DNA of 23,030 bases from a virus, in the IMG/VR virus record IMGVR_UViG_3300045997_000225, positions 1-23,030 of that record; one strand, 5' to 3'. Shown here one piece after another: positions 1,418-17,290 of the stretch (position 1 is its first letter; each line of letters begins with the position of its first letter). The notes under the pieces were generated by a model. The model did not search any database. It was not told the origin of the DNA and saw nothing but the letters and a program-made list of their open reading frames with translations. The position numbers and the translations under genes were made by a program.

Positions 1418-1980
1418 GATTTTTCCTTGAGTTGCCGTTTTGCGGCGATGATTGCAAGAGCAGCACGTTTCCGCACCGCATCAAAGTCGCCGGACTCGGC
1501 GGGATCAACGCCTTGCTTTTGGACAGGCAAGGTGATGTTGAATTGTTTGGCGATCTGCATCGCGCGAGGATGCGCCGGAGTGGAAACGATGCTCGTCTCC
1601 ATCAGGTCAATCTCTTTGAAGTGGATGCCGCCTTTTTCGTTGGGTTCACCGCGACCACGGAATCCGATGCTTGCGCCGAGCGGCACGCCATCGTCCAACA
1701 GCGTCTTGAGCATCTGGCCAAGACTGGTGGAAGCAAATTTGATGTAGCCGACGAGGGTGTCCCCTTCGCGCTTCAAGTTCGTCCAGAACCCGGCGATCTT
1801 GTCGCTGTCGTGATTGAACAGAGCGATGAGTTTCTTCGTTCTTGCCGCGATCCCGTCGTAGGCTTTCGGGTCGATTGTGTCGCGCACCCTGTCCGGCGTC
1901 GCAGCCGACATGATAAACTTGCCGTCGAACTCGGCTGTCGCGGACTTCTGGATCTGGATGTCAAGGTGTTTGGTGTGCAC
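1414..1980 (-). CDS. Prohead maturation protease (HK97 gp4-like, U35/S78)
   Basis: A serine protease of 188 residues that would cleave the capsid delta domain during head maturation. It has the family core: LFNHDSDKIAG with the likely catalytic His57, GASIGFRG with the likely nucleophile Ser104, and EIDLMETSIVSTPAH (123-137), which is typical of these enzymes. The length is normal for a protease without a fused scaffold. The start is GTG (1980-1978). Two in-frame TGA codons lie 12-18 bases upstream, so no longer reading is possible, and no strong Shine-Dalgarno precedes it. The stop overlaps the capsid start by 4 bases. Upstream is an unusual 182-base gap to TerL where a portal gene would be expected. 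Confidence 0.9.
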   Translation of the reverse strand: MHTKHLDIQIQKSATAEFDGKFIMSAATPDRVRDTIDPKAYDGIAARTKKLIALFNHDSDKIAGFWTNLKREGDTLVGYIKFASTSLGQMLKTLLDDGVPLGASIGFRGRGEPNEKGGIHFKEIDLMETSIVSTPAHPRAMQIAKQFNITLPVQKQGVDPAESGDFDAVRKRAALAIIAAKRQLKEKS

Positions 1981-2162
1981 AGCGCAACACTTTCATCAAG
2001 GAAAGGTTGCCGTCGTCCCGCTGCGCAGGCCCCGGAGGATTTGATTTGCGTCTGTCTTCAGGAAATGGTCTGTTTCTAGCCACGAACTTGCCCTGTCAAC
2101 GTTGCATTGACCTTGATTTTGCCTCGCTTCCGCAGCACAGTCAACAAGATCAGGGAAAACAC
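1981..2162. other. Gap between TerL and protease, no portal gene
   Basis: These 182 bases hold no convincing gene. The only small reading on the minus strand is a GTG codon directly after the TerL stop (2162), in the same frame, giving a 28-residue peptide with a hydrophobic start (VFSLILLTVLRKRGK) and then TAG. A weak TTGACA lies on the minus strand in the same stretch but has no matching -10. I call nothing here. The absence of a portal is discussed under findings. Confidence 0.5.
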
Positions 2163-3704
2163 CTACCCAATCATCGCAGAAACGTCGAATTCTGCTGCTT
2201 CGACCATGAATTCGCCTGTCGACATGACTGCCGCGACCAACGGGTCGATGCGCTGGGTGGCCTTGCTCTTGTCGAGTTTGCGGTTGCCTGCCGGGTCGCG
2301 CACAGAAATTGCATTGGCCGCAGCCATGTTCAACAGCGGGTGTGCACCGTGACGCAGCTTGCCCTGCAACAACAACGTCTCGAAGTGCTCCACGCGCGGG
2401 CTCATGGACTGGTAGCCTTGACCGACTTCGATCCATTGGGCGGACTCCAACGCATGTTGACGAGCGGCGGCACCTTGCGCCTCTTTGATGCGCCAGCGGT
2501 CGAAATGCACAGAAGCGACCTCGATTTCCAGCTCTGTCAGCTTCATGCGCAACCACTCGAACAACCAGTCGTAGTCCAGCGTCGCACCCGGCACCGCGAC
2601 CAACTGGCCGCTCTTGACCCAAGTCGTGTACGGAGCCTTGTCGCGCAGCTCGCGCTCTTTCATACCGATTTGTGGCGCGAACACAAACGGCAGCAGGTGA
2701 ACCGCGCCGTCAACGTCCTTGGCGCTGAGCACCGCAGCAGTCAAGTCGTTGCGCGACGACAAATCCAGCCCCAGCGCAACGCGCGCCCCGGAGCGGAACA
2801 CGGCCACATCTGGCGGCTCAGAGCAGCTCTTCCACACGCCGGGTGCAAGCCAGATCTGTTGCAAGCTCACCCGTTGGTTCAGCAGCAAGTTGCGCGTGGA
2901 CGCCTCCAGCGCCGGGATGCGCGCGGCTTGCTTCAACTGCTCTTCCAGATCTTTGCGGCTGCGGAACAAGTCCAGCGCCGGGTTGGCGGCCAACCACTGC
3001 TTCTCGTCCAACAGATCGCAATTCGGCTCTGCAGCGTACAGCTGGCAAACGGTGTGCGGATCTCCCGACCGCAAAGCGTCGTCAATGCGCACGCTCAGGA
3101 AGTCTGCGTCGGACGCGGCTTGTGTGCTGATCATGATGGTCAGCGGGTTTTCGTGAGCGCCGCTGGCCGTGAGACACGCCTCCAGGAAGGGCGAAGTCGG
3201 GCCGACCACTTGGCCGCACTCGTCGATGATCAGCAGCACCGGGGAAAGCCCGTGAGCGGTGGTGGCGTCAGCGGACAGCGCCCGGTACTCGACGTTGTCC
3301 TTCAGCCCGATGATGCGCTTGGCGGAGGGGACGATGCGGTACAACCCCTCCAGCTCTGGATTCAGGTGCAAGATCTTCACCGCGAGGTTGAAGACGAGCG
3401 CGGCTTGGTCGCGGCTATTGGCCGCAGACAGCACCTGCGAGTTGCGTATGCGCTCCGGGCCGATCGTGTGCGCCAACAACAAGCACGCGATCGTCACCGT
3501 CTTGGCGTTCTTGCGCGCCATGGACAATATTGCGTGCCGCGTCAGGTGCGGGTTGTCGTACACGGCGCGTATGAAGCGCAGCTGGAAGTCAGCGAGCTTG
3601 ATGGGCTTGCCGACCAACGCGCCCTCCGGCACGCGGCAATAAGTCTCGATGAACTTGATGACGCGGTCGGCGCGCGTGGGTTCACTCTTCTTGCGCGGCG
3701 GCAT
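2163..3704 (-). CDS. Terminase large subunit (TerL)
   Basis: The ATP-driven DNA packaging motor and nuclease, 513 residues from the chosen ATG. The ATPase domain shows a Walker A-like SMARKNAKTV (61-70, the RKNxKT form common in phage terminases), Walker B LLIIDE (157-162) with catalytic Glu162, and a coupling motif near STQA (193-196). The nuclease domain begins at ALGLDLSSRNDLTA, with metal-binding Asp314, and later acidic positions include HFDRW and RIDPLVAA. The frame stays open upstream to 3914, but that part overlaps the preceding gene and is low-complexity Arg/Ser/Pro, so the ATG at 3704 is preferred. Its Shine-Dalgarno is weak (AGAGAG); a good AAGGAG lies about 26 bases upstream, so a CTG start a few codons earlier is possible. 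It overlaps the small Cys-rich gene by 23 bases. Confidence 0.92.
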   Translation of the reverse strand: MPPRKKSEPTRADRVIKFIETYCRVPEGALVGKPIKLADFQLRFIRAVYDNPHLTRHAILSMARKNAKTVTIACLLLAHTIGPERIRNSQVLSAANSRDQAALVFNLAVKILHLNPELEGLYRIVPSAKRIIGLKDNVEYRALSADATTAHGLSPVLLIIDECGQVVGPTSPFLEACLTASGAHENPLTIMISTQAASDADFLSVRIDDALRSGDPHTVCQLYAAEPNCDLLDEKQWLAANPALDLFRSRKDLEEQLKQAARIPALEASTRNLLLNQRVSLQQIWLAPGVWKSCSEPPDVAVFRSGARVALGLDLSSRNDLTAAVLSAKDVDGAVHLLPFVFAPQIGMKERELRDKAPYTTWVKSGQLVAVPGATLDYDWLFEWLRMKLTELEIEVASVHFDRWRIKEAQGAAARQHALESAQWIEVGQGYQSMSPRVEHFETLLLQGKLRHGAHPLLNMAAANAISVRDPAGNRKLDKSKATQRIDPLVAAVMSTGEFMVEAAEFDVSAMIG

Positions 3705-3957
3705 CTTCGCTCTCTGCAGCAGCAGTTTCTCCTTTTGCGCGGGCCACCCTGTACGGGTTGTAGGCCCACACGGGGCAGATCTCCGACCGGCAAGTCGCGG
3801 CCTCTTCTGCGTCGAAGTTGCAACAGTCGAAGCACTTGGCCTTGATGGCGGCGCGCGGCGAGAGCTCGCCCTTGTAGGCGCGCTCCAGCATGGTGCGTCG
3901 CCGCTCGGGCACACGAGCGACTTGGGCGGCTTGGCGCGGGGTGAGTTGTGTGGTCAA
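3682..3957 (-). CDS. Small Cys-rich phage protein next to TerL
   Basis: A 91-residue protein that I cannot assign a function. It has a compact cysteine cluster: KCFDCCNFD followed by TCRSEICPVWAYNPYR, with about five Cys in 25 residues. This suggests metal binding or a small treble-clef-like fold, and similar short Cys-rich proteins occur beside terminase genes in other siphophages. The start is TTG (3957-3955), preceded by AAGGAG at good spacing and overlapping the TerS stop as TTGA, so translational coupling is likely. Its acidic Ala/Glu tail overlaps the first 23 bases of TerL in another frame. Tight packing within the terminase operon supports it as a real gene that may help packaging; that role is inference. 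Confidence 0.75.
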   Translation of the reverse strand: MTTQLTPRQAAQVARVPERRRTMLERAYKGELSPRAAIKAKCFDCCNFDAEEAATCRSEICPVWAYNPYRVARAKGETAAAESEDAAAQEE

Positions 3958-4409
3958 ATCAGGTCTCCTTCAGAAGCGCGCTCCAGCACCTTGCGGGTGG
4001 CACGAGCAGCGCTGTTGCGTTTTTGCTGGTCTTGGTTGGTCAAGCCGCGCGCCGCCGCGCCCAGCCCGATCAGTTTGTTGAGCTGCACCACCGTGGAGGT
4101 GATTTGCAACAACATTGTGCCGAGCGGGTTCGTCACCAGCGTGCCGCGATCGTTGCGGGTGGTGTAGCCTTCAGCGTCCAGCCCCTCGTTCACCTCCTCT
4201 ATGCGGCGGTAACAGATTGCGAGGTTGGCCGCGACGCGCAGGTCGTTTTCGCTCCACGTGGCCGGTTCACGGTGGTCGACGATGCTCTTGAAGATTTTCT
4301 GTTCGTGCTCCGTCAGCGGAATTGGCGACACCGCAGGCGTCATCACGCCGCGTGCCAAGTCCTTGTAGCCGTCAGAGCTGGTGAGTTTGGTGCGATTACG
4401 GGCAGCCAT
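3954..4409 (-). CDS. Terminase small subunit (TerS)
   Basis: A 151-residue protein that would recognise phage DNA and present it to TerL. The identification rests on position (directly upstream of TerL with one small gene between), length, and a helical P27-like pattern: an N-terminal basic segment, LTEHEQKIFKSIVDH, a helix with NDLRVAANLAICYRRIEE, then TNPLGTMLLQITSTVVQLNKLIGL, which resembles the oligomerisation helix ahead of the C-terminal tail in this family. The start is the ATG at 4409 with AAGGAG at good spacing; the longer open frame to 4739 crosses a Pro/Arg-rich stretch opposite the HNH gene and is rejected. The stop overlaps the next gene by 4 bases. Confidence 0.8.
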   Translation of the reverse strand: MAARNRTKLTSSDGYKDLARGVMTPAVSPIPLTEHEQKIFKSIVDHREPATWSENDLRVAANLAICYRRIEEVNEGLDAEGYTTRNDRGTLVTNPLGTMLLQITSTVVQLNKLIGLGAAARGLTNQDQQKRNSAARATRKVLERASEGDLI

Positions 4410-4525
4410 GAGAAACTCCTTGGTTGGTTTGGTCGGGGAATGAGCGTAGGCCACTGACCGGGTGGGATACGCGGGAAAACGGGGGCGGGTGGTGGAACGG
4501 TAGCATTGGAGGCTCGGCTGGGCGT

Positions 4526-4810
4526 TTAGGCCCACCCCGGCGGGTATCCGTGCACGTCCACCGCGACAGTCTCTTTTCCGCCACGGCCTTTCTCGGCATG
4601 GCGCTTGTTGTCGCACGACGGGCACAAGCACCGCAGGTTGCTCAGATCGAACGCCAGCGCCGGGAATTGCCGCACTGGGCGGATGTGATCGACCCGGCTC
4701 GCCCCAATGCCGCGCAATGAAGCGCCGCAGGTGACGCATCGCCAGCCGTCCCTACGCAGCGCGGATTGCCGCAGGGGTTTCCATCGAGGGTCGGTGTATA
4801 CATCCAACAT
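4526..4810 (-). CDS. HNH endonuclease of the packaging module
   Basis: A 94-residue HNH nuclease. Key residues visible are CVTCG (zinc knuckle), RVDHIRPVRQFPALAFDLSNLRCLCPSCDNKRH, which gives the DH, N and H of the HNH motif, and a second CxxC. Free-standing HNH proteins beside terminase genes act with the terminase in cos cleavage in phages such as HK97, so a packaging role is likely. The ATG at 4810 has GGAG six bases upstream. An in-frame TTG at 4840 is less likely because it lies inside one arm of an inverted repeat. The 115-base gap to TerS contains only a GC-rich stretch and the TerS ribosome binding site. Confidence 0.85.
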   Translation of the reverse strand: MLDVYTDPRWKPLRQSALRRDGWRCVTCGASLRGIGASRVDHIRPVRQFPALAFDLSNLRCLCPSCDNKRHAEKGRGGKETVAVDVHGYPPGWA

Positions 4811-4832
4811 AAATGCTCCAAATTCTTTCCAT

Positions 4833-4931
4833 CCGGTCAACCGCTAACCCGCAACCCCTAAAACCCCTATATATAAAACAGCCTGAATCTTTCTCGCGAC
4901 TTTACTCGGTAGAGGTTTAGCGGTTGACCGG
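4833..4931. repeat. 18-bp inverted repeat flanking AT-rich core
   Basis: Arms at 4833-4850 and 4914-4931 match at 17 of 18 positions when one is inverted (CCGGTCAACCGCTAA shared). The 63-base interval contains TATATATAAA and, read on the minus strand, spaced G-runs (GGGG, GGGG, GGG, then GG). It lies between helicase and the HNH-TerS-TerL genes. It could be a terminase binding site/cos region or an operator for the packaging genes. No terminator-like T-run accompanies it. Confidence 0.75.
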
Positions 4932-4963
4932 TTTGGCAAAATTCGCTCCAAAGCAGTAGTCAT

Positions 4964-9441: not shown

Positions 9442-9993
9442 TGGCCAGCAAATGGCCATATAACCACGAGCCAATCAATGGGCCATAGAGCCACGACGCG
9501 CGGCCAGACGGGGTCAGCCTCAGCGCCGCGCCGCTGGCCAGGCAACGCCCATATAACCAAGACCCACGAGATGGCCCAGGAAGCCACAACGACCGGCGAG
9601 ACGGGGTCGGCCCCAGCCGCGTGGCAACGCCAGGCAACGCCCATATAACCAAGGCCCAATATATGGCCCAGGAAGCCACAACGACCGGCGAGACGGGGTC
9701 GCGCACAAATATCTCGTTTGCCCAAAAATCGCCCATATAACCACGACCAATTATATGGGCCAGGAAGCCGCGCCGAGCGGCGAGACGGGGGTGGCCCCAG
9801 AAACCCTTTGCGCCCAGGAAACGCCCATTAAACCAAGGCCCAATATATGGGCCAGGAAGCCAAGGCACGCGGCGAGACGGGGTTGCCCCAGATATCGCGG
9901 GCAGGCCAGGAAACGCCCATTAAACCAATACCCAATATATGGGCCAGGAAGCCACCGCGACCGGCGAGACGGGGTAGGCCTCAGTTCTTGCGT
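9442..9993. repeat. Six tandem 92-bp repeats with internal dyads
   Basis: The ATATAA/ATTAAA anchor occurs at 9458, 9551, 9643, 9735, 9827 and 9919, and the GAGACGGGG anchor at 9504 (CAGACGGGG in the first unit), 9598, 9690, 9782, 9874 and 9966, so the period is 92 bases (93-94 between the first two units). Each unit carries GCCCAT(A/T)(T/A)AA, then ATATGG(G)CC, GGAAGCCA, a CGGCGAGACGGGG block and GCCCCAG or a variant. The unit at 9731-9760 holds a perfect 10-bp inverted repeat with a 10-base loop; units at 9838 and 9930 contain palindromic CCCAATATATGGG. The later units are more alike and the first is the most diverged. Because 92 is not a multiple of 3, the open minus-strand frames across it do not encode a repeated peptide. 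Likely non-coding: origin iterons, a partition site or a structured RNA array. Confidence 0.9.
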
Positions 9994-10189: not shown

Positions 10190-10274
10190 AAAATTTTCCG
10201 CCCGTACCCCTGCACCAGCCCAAATTATCTCCGGAATTCGTCCAAAATATATTTTTGAATTTTCGTCAAAACGC

Positions 10275-14845: not shown

Positions 14846-14862
14846 CATTATCCTCAAACCCC

Positions 14863-14891
14863 TTGCCTTTTGGCGAAAATTCAGGGATAAT
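14863..14891 (+). promoter_or_regulatory. Rightward promoter P2 (methyltransferase operon)
   Basis: TTGCCT (14863-14868), a 17-base spacer containing TTGGCGAAAATT, and GATAAT (14886-14891). About 45 bases of leader with AGAAAG at 14913 precede the ATG at 14928. The core is identical to P3 from the CCTCAAACCCC upstream bases through the -10, but the downstream leader differs and lacks the hairpins. Confidence 0.8.
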
Positions 14892-14927
14892 TAGGGCTCC
14901 CAACCACCCCTTAGAAAGAAGTCAGAA

Positions 14928-16235
14928 ATGAAAAACGACACCCCAATCCGCTTGCTCCGAGAAGCTTCTCACAACCACAAGTACCGCGTTGTGGCGGGCT
15001 GCGACTGTGTGTACTGCGGCACCCCCGTCAAGGCTGTGAACCAAGGTTCTGCCGGAGACCATGTGCCGCCGCTGGCTGTGTTGGACGCAAACTTCGGCGT
15101 CGCTGTGGGCGACATGGAAACTGTTCCTTGCTGCTCAGAGTGCAACACACTGCTGGGCGCCATCCCGCTGGTCACCGTCGCGCAGCGCCGCGCGCACGTC
15201 CTCGCCGTCCGTCCTCTCGTCGGCAAGACAGAAGCCCAGATCATCGCGGGCGCCATGTACAACGCCAACATCAATGAAGGCTTCAAACGTGGCGAAGGTC
15301 AAGTCGACACGCCGGACGTGGTCGCAGGACAGATCCTAGACAAGTTGCAACTGCTAGGTTCTTTTTGTGACCCTGCCTGCGGAGACGGCTCTTTCGTGCG
15401 CATGCAAATCCGTCGGCTGGTGGAGGCTGGCGTAGACAACGCGTGGATCGAAGCGAACGTGCGCGGCTACGACAACGACGTAGAGATGGCCGCAGAAGCT
15501 GTGCGACGGCTGCGTCGCGAATTTCCAAGTCTGGATGGCAAGGCGATCTTCAAACAACAGGACATCTTCACAATGAAAGACCACTTCACCACCATCATTA
15601 TGAACCCGCCTTGGAACTTGAAGACGGGCGGCAAGACGGTCGAGCGCAACACCTGGCGCAAGTTTGCCGACGCGGCGCTGAAGCTCGCCGAGACGGTCGT
15701 CGTTGTGGCGCCAATGAGCGCGCGGCAAGCCGGCAAAAGGGTGCTTGTCGAAGCTGTCCGGTTCGAAGGTGTCGAGCACGACGGCTGCGCGGTTGTTTGG
15801 TCGGAGGACGCGGCGCAGGACTTCAGCGCTTTCCCGAAGTTTGATTTGCACTTTCTGTCTCAAGTCGTCGGCGGCGACGCGGTGATGTCTGAAAAGGGCA
15901 AGCGAGACATACATTCCGTGGAGCTTGAGAATTGGCGCGGCGGCGCTCCTTACTGGGCAACACCAAGAGCTGCCGCGACTTACAAGGTGGGCGAGCCAAA
16001 AGGGTTGTTTCGGCTCAACGCTTCTGGAAAGCACGAATTTGCCTGGTCCAAGTCTCTCCGTCCGGGGAACGTGGCCTATGGCGAGCAGGCTGAGTTCGAG
16101 CGGTTCTGCGCCTATGCGTCGTCTGAAGCCGGTGTGCGTGACTTGAGGGCGCTTGCAGACAGAGCGAACATGGGATTTATAAATCTCAACAAGGCCACCC
16201 TCAACGCCGCGTTCTCCAGCCGGGTGACGAAATGA
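14928..16235 (+). CDS. HNH nuclease-N6-adenine methyltransferase fusion (gene A)
   Basis: A 435-residue protein with two joined parts. Residues ~20-80 form an HNH-like zinc domain: CVYC (27-30), GDHVPPLA with the Asp44-His45 pair, and CSECN (69-73). Residues ~125-435 form an N6-adenine DNA methyltransferase in the usual gamma-like motif order: motif X (TPDVV, 128-132), AdoMet-binding motif I (DPACGDGS, 148-155), motif II (YDND, 181-184), Asp212 of motif III, and catalytic motif IV NPPW (226-229). Codons for residues 223-306 are part of a 253-bp perfect repeat found again in gene B. The ATG has AGAAAG upstream. The stop overlaps the gene B start by 4 bases. It may methylate phage DNA and, if the HNH part is active, cut unmodified DNA. 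Confidence 0.85.
   Translation: MKNDTPIRLLREASHNHKYRVVAGCDCVYCGTPVKAVNQGSAGDHVPPLAVLDANFGVAVGDMETVPCCSECNTLLGAIPLVTVAQRRAHVLAVRPLVGKTEAQIIAGAMYNANINEGFKRGEGQVDTPDVVAGQILDKLQLLGSFCDPACGDGSFVRMQIRRLVEAGVDNAWIEANVRGYDNDVEMAAEAVRRLRREFPSLDGKAIFKQQDIFTMKDHFTTIIMNPPWNLKTGGKTVERNTWRKFADAALKLAETVVVVAPMSARQAGKRVLVEAVRFEGVEHDGCAVVWSEDAAQDFSAFPKFDLHFLSQVVGGDAVMSEKGKRDIHSVELENWRGGAPYWATPRAAATYKVGEPKGLFRLNASGKHEFAWSKSLRPGNVAYGEQAEFERFCAYASSEAGVRDLRALADRANMGFINLNKATLNAAFSSRVTK
15593..15845 (+). repeat. 253-bp direct repeat, copy 1 (inside gene A)
   Basis: By base-by-base reading this is identical to 16243-16495, with an offset of 650. It covers motif IV NPPW through the FPKFD codons. The frames of the two genes correspond, so recombination between copies would join gene A to the gene B end in frame. 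Confidence 0.97.
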
Positions 16236-16882
16236 TGTCGGTCATCATTATGAACCCGCCTTGGAACTTGAAGACGGGCGGCAAGACGGTCGAGCGCAAC
16301 ACCTGGCGCAAGTTTGCCGACGCGGCGCTGAAGCTCGCCGAGACGGTCGTCGTTGTGGCGCCAATGAGCGCGCGGCAAGCCGGCAAAAGGGTGCTTGTCG
16401 AAGCTGTCCGGTTCGAAGGTGTCGAGCACGACGGCTGCGCGGTTGTTTGGTCGGAGGACGCGGCGCAGGACTTCAGCGCTTTCCCGAAGTTTGATGTGGC
16501 GATTGATCTGTTCAAAGACGGCAAATCAATCCGTTCTGACGACAAGAAGTCGGCCACCACAACCGTCGCTGTGCACAACTGGTCTGGCGCGCGTTTCTGG
16601 GCGACGCCGAGCTACGCCGAGCGTTGTGGCGTCAACGAAGCCAAGCTGATGCTCCGGCTCAAGGCAGCGGGCAATCACGACGCAGAATTCGGCAAAGGGC
16701 TCCGCGCAATGTGTTACGTCGTCACAGGCCCAGACGCAAAAGCGTTTCACGCCTACACAGAAACGCCAGAAGGGCTCGCGGCTTTGATTGAGTTGTCCGG
16801 CGGCAAGAACGGCGGCTTTCTGAACCCGAAGCCTGCTGTGCTCAACGCCGCATTTTCCGCGCGCCACAAGGAACCAAAATGA
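16232..16882 (+). CDS. Catalytic half of an adenine methyltransferase (gene B)
   Basis: A 216-residue protein that begins at the catalytic motif: MMSVIIMNPPWNLK, so NPPW lies at residues 8-11. It has no AdoMet-binding motif I. Residues 5-88 are encoded by DNA identical to part of gene A. The rest is a diverged relative of the gene A C-terminus: HNWSGARFWATP matches ENWRGGAPYWATP, and VLNAAFSARHKE matches TLNAAFSSRVTK. It overlaps gene A by ATGA and gene C by ATGA, so all three should be translated together. Alone it cannot bind AdoMet in the normal way. It may pair with the product of gene C, which supplies motifs X to III, or with gene A. Confidence 0.85.
   Translation: MMSVIIMNPPWNLKTGGKTVERNTWRKFADAALKLAETVVVVAPMSARQAGKRVLVEAVRFEGVEHDGCAVVWSEDAAQDFSAFPKFDVAIDLFKDGKSIRSDDKKSATTTVAVHNWSGARFWATPSYAERCGVNEAKLMLRLKAAGNHDAEFGKGLRAMCYVVTGPDAKAFHAYTETPEGLAALIELSGGKNGGFLNPKPAVLNAAFSARHKEPK
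16243..16495 (+). repeat. 253-bp direct repeat, copy 2 (inside gene B)
   Basis: Identical to 15593-15845. The sequence diverges abruptly at both edges: before the shared CATCATTA, and after TTGAT. Confidence 0.97.
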
Positions 16883-17241
16883 GCACTCACAACGACGCCG
16901 CCCGCGACGCAAAGTACCGCGACCCGTCGGTCGGTTCCGTTCACACGCCCATGGCTATGAGCCGCGAGATTGTCGCCGCAATGGACGCCGCGCTCTTCGC
17001 TCCGGGCAAGACGTTCCTCGACCCTGCGTGCGGCTCAGGCAATTTGCTGGTGGCCGTAGCCGAGCGGCGGCTGAGCCTAGGGGTGACCCCCAGCGACGTC
17101 GCCGCCACGACATTCGGCGTCGACATCAATGCCGAGGCCGTGTCGGAAGCGCTCGACCGGCTGAGCCTGCTCCTAGGCGAGGAAAACCGCTCGACAATGG
17201 CGGCGAACTTTGATGTGCGGGACTGGCTGACAACCAATTAA
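16879..17241 (+). CDS. AdoMet-binding half of an adenine methyltransferase (gene C)
   Basis: A 120-residue protein with the N-terminal half of an N6-adenine methyltransferase: motif X (VHTPMAMSREIV, 21-32), motif I (FLDPACGSGNLL, 46-57), motif II (TTFGVDIN, 77-84), and a motif III-like FDVRDWL (111-117). It stops three residues later, exactly where the NPPW motif should follow. The missing part is what gene B encodes, and gene B lies upstream, so the two halves are in reversed order. The stop TAA is clean and promoter P3 follows after 15 bases. It is a diverged relative of the gene A N-terminal half without the HNH part. It is probably a subunit of a split enzyme; decay is the alternative, but intact frames and ATGA coupling argue against it. 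Confidence 0.85.
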   Translation: MSTHNDAARDAKYRDPSVGSVHTPMAMSREIVAAMDAALFAPGKTFLDPACGSGNLLVAVAERRLSLGVTPSDVAATTFGVDINAEAVSEALDRLSLLLGEENRSTMAANFDVRDWLTTN

Positions 17242-17256
17242 TTTCCCTCAAACCCC

Positions 17257-17285
17257 TTGCCTTTTGGCGAAAATTCAGGGATAAT
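17257..17285 (+). promoter_or_regulatory. Rightward promoter P3
   Basis: TTGCCT (17257-17262), a 17-base spacer with TTGGCGAAAATT, and GATAAT (17280-17285). Transcription should begin near 17291. Confidence 0.8.
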
Positions 17286-17290
17286 TAAAT

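Follow-up and report, generated by a model that had tools for sequence, protein, structure and literature searches.

The A-B-C locus

The window, by which we mean the whole stretch of 23,030 nucleotides analysed here, encodes a major head protein, a head protease, a terminase, a RepB-type primase and Thy1, and its source is a tailed phage. Three of its genes, referred to below as A, B and C, follow one another on the same strand (Table 1). According to the original prediction, B opens at motif IV and lacks motif I, C carries motif I and ends before motif IV, both frames are intact and coupled by ATGA, and a complete gene A lies directly upstream; the frames, the coordinates and the sequence bear out each of these points. 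The translation of B contains no motif I, and that of C terminates in NFDVRDWLTTN, just short of motif IV. When C is joined to B, the junction reads NFDVRDWLTTN+MMSVIIMNPPW, with a spacing close to that of gene A (IFKQQDIFTMKDHFTTIIMNPPW); the cut between C and B thus loses no residues. The overlap between B and C is likely to represent translational coupling. As a promoter-like repeat stands before A and again after C, we read A-B-C as one unit.

Table 1. Features of the A-B-C locus (positions in the window)
Feature	Position	Strand	Description	Basis
Promoter-like element before A	14856..14893	+	TTGCCT-spacer-GATAAT; repeat family D6	putative promoter
Gene A	14928..16235	+	435 aa; single-chain paralogue, C before B as is usual; motif I and NPPW in one frame	ORF
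Motif I of A	15369-15389	+	DPACGDG	sequence
253-bp exact repeat, copy in A	15593..15845	+	from IIMNPPW to FPKFD	base-for-base identity
NPPW of A	15603-15614	+		sequence
ATGA overlap, A stop and B start	16232..16235	+		sequence
Gene B	16232..16882	+	216 aa; catalytic half (motif IV onwards) and putative target-recognition half	ORF
253-bp exact repeat, copy in B	16243..16495	+	about codons 4-88	base-for-base identity
Motif IV of B	16253..16264	+	NPPW, residues 8-11	sequence
ATGA overlap, B stop and C start	16879..16882	+		sequence
Gene C	16879..17241	+	120 aa; AdoMet-binding half with motif I region; stops ahead of motif IV	ORF
Motif I of C	17020..17040	+	DPACGSG; D48 of LDPACGSG at 17020	sequence
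Second promoter-like D6 element	17250-17287		3' of C	

Genes A and B share an exact repeat of 253 bp, a feature absent from the first description of this locus. Outside the repeated block, the tails of A and B are about one third identical at the protein level. The combination of identical bases with divergent tails argues that the block is recent and that A and B are older paralogues; the block may have arisen by duplication or by gene conversion.

The N-terminus of gene A (14928-15320) is cysteine-rich (CVYC, CCSEC) and contains DHVPP, which suggests an HNH-like domain. This region had no Pfam match, and its PHROG scores were 2.8e-6 for phrog_36777 and only 0.048 for the HNH family phrog_16726. 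A single-chain structure model of gene A reached a pLDDT of 46 and was set aside.

Sequence relationships of B and C

In Pfam, C of the window matches N6_Mtase (1.7e-5) and B has no match; the Pfam matches of C and A are to adenine-type and general methyltransferase families, with no C5 methyltransferase family among them. In PHROG, the window C matches phrog_11371 (3.4e-12) and phrog_21201 (5.7e-10), its scores against the C families ranging from 3.4e-12 to 6.5e-6, and the window B again has no match; the B genes of relatives score with phrog_3689. In that resource phrog_3689 (B) and phrogs 4376, 21201 and 11371 (C or fused forms) stand as separate families, with function partly unknown.

Profiles of the two families, built without the window sequences, recovered both genes, with scores of 2e-23 for C and 8.5e-7 for B over residues 3-56 (both at Z=1e5); composition-shuffled versions of B and C gave no score against the same profiles. 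The window B was also matched to the B of the L003 type by tblastn (3e-6). NPP is invariant in 14 aligned B halves and DPACG in the alignment of C. The gamma-class form of motif I, (D/E)PxCGxG, is found in C as DPACGSG, and the gamma-class NPP(Y/F/W) in B as NPPW. We found no close relatives of A, of B or of the A/B block in the viral contigs searched, nor did tblastn match A or B to any isolated phage.

Gene order and linkage among relatives

A search with the window C alone returned eight viral loci. With an alignment of seven C proteins 201 were found, of which 80 were kept, and the removal of near copies left 70 non-redundant C domains, including the window C and that of gene A. Among these 70, a short or medium-length B lies immediately upstream of C in 34, and a helicase-B in six. 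A further nine are fused B-C proteins and one is a fused C-B protein; three are split C-B pairs, one of them doubtful (L083, with a motif SPPY at residue 268). Two C domains have a candidate B on both sides, and in one of these loci (L007) the downstream gene is Dam-like, making it in effect a split B-C locus. No adjacent B was recognised for 13 C domains. Thus, relatives with separate genes in B-C order (about 40 of 70) or fused in that order are common, and no other layout is as frequent in the family as split B-C. In most loci the ends of B and C overlap by 4 to about 30 bases. Adjacent B and C pairs occur in the isolated phages P-SSM2, S-CAM7, S-SKS1 and PSD9, in the last of these as ORF103/ORF102, and in a Curtobacterium plasmid, and the fused B-C form in the Aeromonas phages PX29 and ZPAH1.

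Because these loci had been found through C, we assessed linkage in loci fetched by one B subfamily instead (57 loci, near copies included). Two truncated loci were set aside; in all 55 with enough sequence C lies directly downstream of B, as a separate gene in 44 and fused in 11. The split B proteins of L081, L078, L089 and L042 are 50-53% identical to the fused relative L013. Together with the linkage, this shows that one enzyme exists in both a split and a fused B-C form. The window B is distant from the subfamily used here, and the linkage evidence therefore reaches it by homology. B and C belong to a large and apparently unnamed phage family.

In 29 of 42 pairs the overlap of B and C is in the same frame, for which reason a programmed frameshift joining B to C was considered; it was dropped, no slippery site being evident by eye.

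Four loci (L029, positions 1510-4944, L020, L038 and L090) encode proteins of about 1140-1160 residues with a C-terminal B half, the C half being a separate downstream gene; the protein of L029 has ResIII and Eco57I domains, and the four are possibly restriction-modification-like enzymes. In the B of Shigella phage PSD9 (L108, 1524-3023) the N-terminus resembles, by eye, a GIY-YIG nuclease domain. C-like domains also lie within proteins of 802-944 residues at L087 (11-2419) and L088 (3111-5945), in which no motif IV was seen.

Predicted structure of a fused relative

The fused B-C relative L013 was modelled with a pLDDT of 84.8 and a pTM of 0.83. By VIA-align, residues 1-399 of the model align over their full length with the beta-class enzymes MboIIA (Z 11.8), RsrI (10.8) and CcrM (10.7). 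Taken singly, the B part (1-286) corresponds to TaqI 97-412 and CamA 157-577, from motif IV through the recognition domain, and the C part to HsdM. In Foldseek the top-ranked matches were CamA and TaqI. At the level of sequence, the C profile (a search with the C half) found gamma-type chains (BseCI, CamA, HsdM) and related chains, and none of the beta class. Taken together, these matches predict that gamma-type halves in beta-class order form one domain. The earlier statement that B-C stands in the motif order of the beta class agrees with the order of the genes and with the end-to-end match of the fused relative.

Arrays of B genes and additional AdoMet domains

Many B genes in which motif IV lies near residue 110 carry a C-like domain, here C', in front. 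The C profile finds C' at 1e-11 to 1e-16 in most of these genes that have a motif-I-like sequence. Profile comparison with C gave a probability of 99.4% for this type; a second type, which is degenerate, reached 96.5%, and a third, in which the motif is replaced, 81%. The helicase type showed no match in the same comparison.

Whole-record searches showed that several loci combine one C with more than one B. L169 has five C'-B genes and one C, L170 four C'-B genes and one C, L171 four short B genes and one C, and L172 three B genes and one C. Among the copies in L169 identity is 84-89% in the block that ends shortly after motif IV and 22-45% in the rest; the corresponding values in L170 are 63-80% and 20-28%. 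A and B of the window, with their identical block followed by divergent tails, resemble this pattern. In addition, closely related C proteins adjoin very different B genes, and in Synechococcus phage ACG-2014f C lies about 100 kb away from a short B. These observations suggest that C is shared and acts in trans, and that it may serve each B of an array.

A tree of C domains was rooted with bacterial C-B enzymes. Its alignment columns are few, its branches long and its root weak; within it, all separate C domains and those of fused B-C proteins fall on one side (97/59), the window C among them, and C' falls on the other together with the fused C-B protein L010 (86/77), with the AdoMet domain of gene A unplaced. 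C and C' thus appear to have split anciently.

A proposed two-subunit adenine methyltransferase

B and C are complementary, intact halves, and very likely constitute one enzyme. C would fold as the AdoMet-binding half of a Rossmann domain, with B contributing the catalytic half that bears NPPW as well as the part that recognises the target. Assembly of the two would occur in trans, favoured by the coupling of their translation, and would yield a domain whose gamma-type parts stand in beta-class order. In the family at large, C would act as the cofactor subunit and B as an exchangeable specificity subunit, with one C for one to five B genes, the catalytic block of B being conserved or homogenised by recombination and its target-recognition half varying. 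In the window, A and B may be two such halves, A with an AdoMet domain of its own, and C would serve B and possibly A as well. The probable use is protection: methylated at one site or several, the phage DNA would escape cutting by the restriction enzymes of the host.

We consider this explanation, that of an adenine methyltransferase from a phage family with exchangeable B subunits and an anti-restriction use, to be the best available and, taken whole, likely; the anatomy, the linkage, the arrays and the model of the fused relative are observations, from which we infer that the separate subunits assemble, the methyltransferase activity, the use of one C by several B and the anti-restriction role. 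Counted against it are those B genes whose own AdoMet domain seems usable, next to which C could have another role, as well as the 13 of 70 C domains without a recognised B beside them and the higher dN/dS of B in L085 and L048 (0.42). A more specific version, in which one C serves an array of catalytic and target-recognition subunits that swap recognition halves through recombination, and in which the layouts of relatives (fused C-B, [C'-B]+C, B+C and fused B-C) preserve steps of the permutation, is plausible, falling a little short of one that we would favour.

Alternative explanations

Models of circular permutation in methyltransferases include duplication and, as the alternative, fission and fusion (PMC3320104), and at the level of the family both routes are possible. 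The layout expected under permutation by duplication, [C'-B]+C, is present in the family. By the other route, a C-B gene would have broken into C and B, which were reordered and at times fused again as B-C. All four layouts exist, and the split C-B pairs L003 and L004 adjoin the fused B-C L024 in trees (88/88 and 98/93), as this route would have it; however, C'-B genes that stand beside a separate, anciently diverged C amount to two AdoMet domains in one locus. We hold fission and fusion to be a tentative possibility, and one that concerns the history of the family rather than the function of the pair, so that our confidences in these readings are not mutually exclusive.

The locus itself had originally been taken for a natural intermediate of permutation by duplication. 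In such a history, a tandem duplication of gene A would have been followed by trimming of the two copies, each from a different end, B and C being what remained. The complete C-B enzyme A directly upstream, the paralogous tails of A and B with their identical block, and the presence of [C'-B]+C layouts in the family are all consistent with such an origin. Nevertheless, the window C is about 40% identical to the C of L003 as against about 30% to the AdoMet domain of A, and in the tree it groups with the C domains of other phages and not with that of A. Moreover, B begins at the normal start of family B genes, only the shared block being recent, and split B-C is widespread in the family. This part of the original prediction is thereby not supported, and a fresh local origin is unlikely.

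We give a similarly low probability to the reading of C as a regulator, or as a partner of A or of another enzyme, rather than as the cofactor half of B. The motif-I-like domain retained in the B genes of L085, L069, L021 and L071 speaks for it, since C might be dispensable for catalysis there; but short B genes have no AdoMet domain of any kind, and in models the fused B-C form makes up a single catalytic domain.

That the exact repeat is an assembly error, with the true start of B being different, is quite improbable. The record is metagenomic, the repeat is longer than short reads, and no near relative was found; however, the repeat does not include the B-C junction, the start encoded ahead of it in B (MMSV..NPPW) is one that is normal for the family, and similar conserved blocks occur in other arrays.

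Among the close relative pairs that gave a value, dN/dS was 0.09-0.27 for B and C, with the exception of B in the pair L085 and L048 (0.42), whose recognition halves differ. Decay of a broken methyltransferase gene into fragments, a reading to which the lack in each half of motifs essential to a one-piece enzyme and the recent recombination in the A-B block might point, is the least probable of all, given the intact frames, a cut identical to that in dozens of relatives, the mostly low dN/dS of these and the constant linkage of B and C.

Comparison with known methyltransferases

The gamma-class enzymes M.TaqI, M.BseCI, CamA and HsdM have in common with C and B the motif I DPxCGxG and the motif IV NPP(Y/F/W), but they are single chains in the order I, IV and TRD, an order not found in the window, where two genes stand as B-C. 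Enzymes of the beta class (M.MboIIA, M.RsrI, CcrM) have the same order as B-C, namely IV, TRD and I, in one chain.

Circularly permuted, fused adenine methylases like M.EcoKI have been described from jumbo phages (Iyer et al. 2021, PMC7824862). As characterised there, they are single chains whose gamma-type parts follow the B-C order, like L013 and the proteins of PX29 and ZPAH1; the comparison is with that published description, in which APU01582.1 is the example. B and C are separate genes in the window, unlike the fused jumbo-phage enzymes, and we found no mention in that account of several B using one C. The two-subunit enzyme made of permuted halves had been put forward as new, and it is this novelty that the published fused enzymes weaken. 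Searches of openly licensed papers yielded nothing on a split adenine form, nor on the combination of a single C with many B. Natural methyltransferases of two polypeptides are known among cytosine-5 enzymes, namely M.AquI and M.EcoHK31I (PMC3404938), which differ from B and C in their cytosine-5 chemistry and motifs and in being cut elsewhere; permuted cytosine-5 methyltransferases have also been published (PMC5944983).

Should B and C function as predicted, the cofactor and specificity halves of a methyltransferase have become separate proteins in phages, which could then acquire new target sites through the addition or exchange of B genes only. The family also provides naturally occurring stages of circular permutation that can be tested, a subject on which most work has used engineered enzymes, and many hypothetical phage genes could be annotated as subunits of DNA methyltransferases.

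Other repeats in the window

The promoter-like repeat that flanks the locus recurs in the window, with copies at 10268, 14856, 17250 and 19299. A leader-like repeat (AACCACAGAAAGTGAGAA...ATG) stands ahead of many genes, at several sites between 10338 and 21450. Six copies of a further repeat, with a period of 92 bp, occupy positions 9442-9984, the other copies being 68-76% identical to the first.
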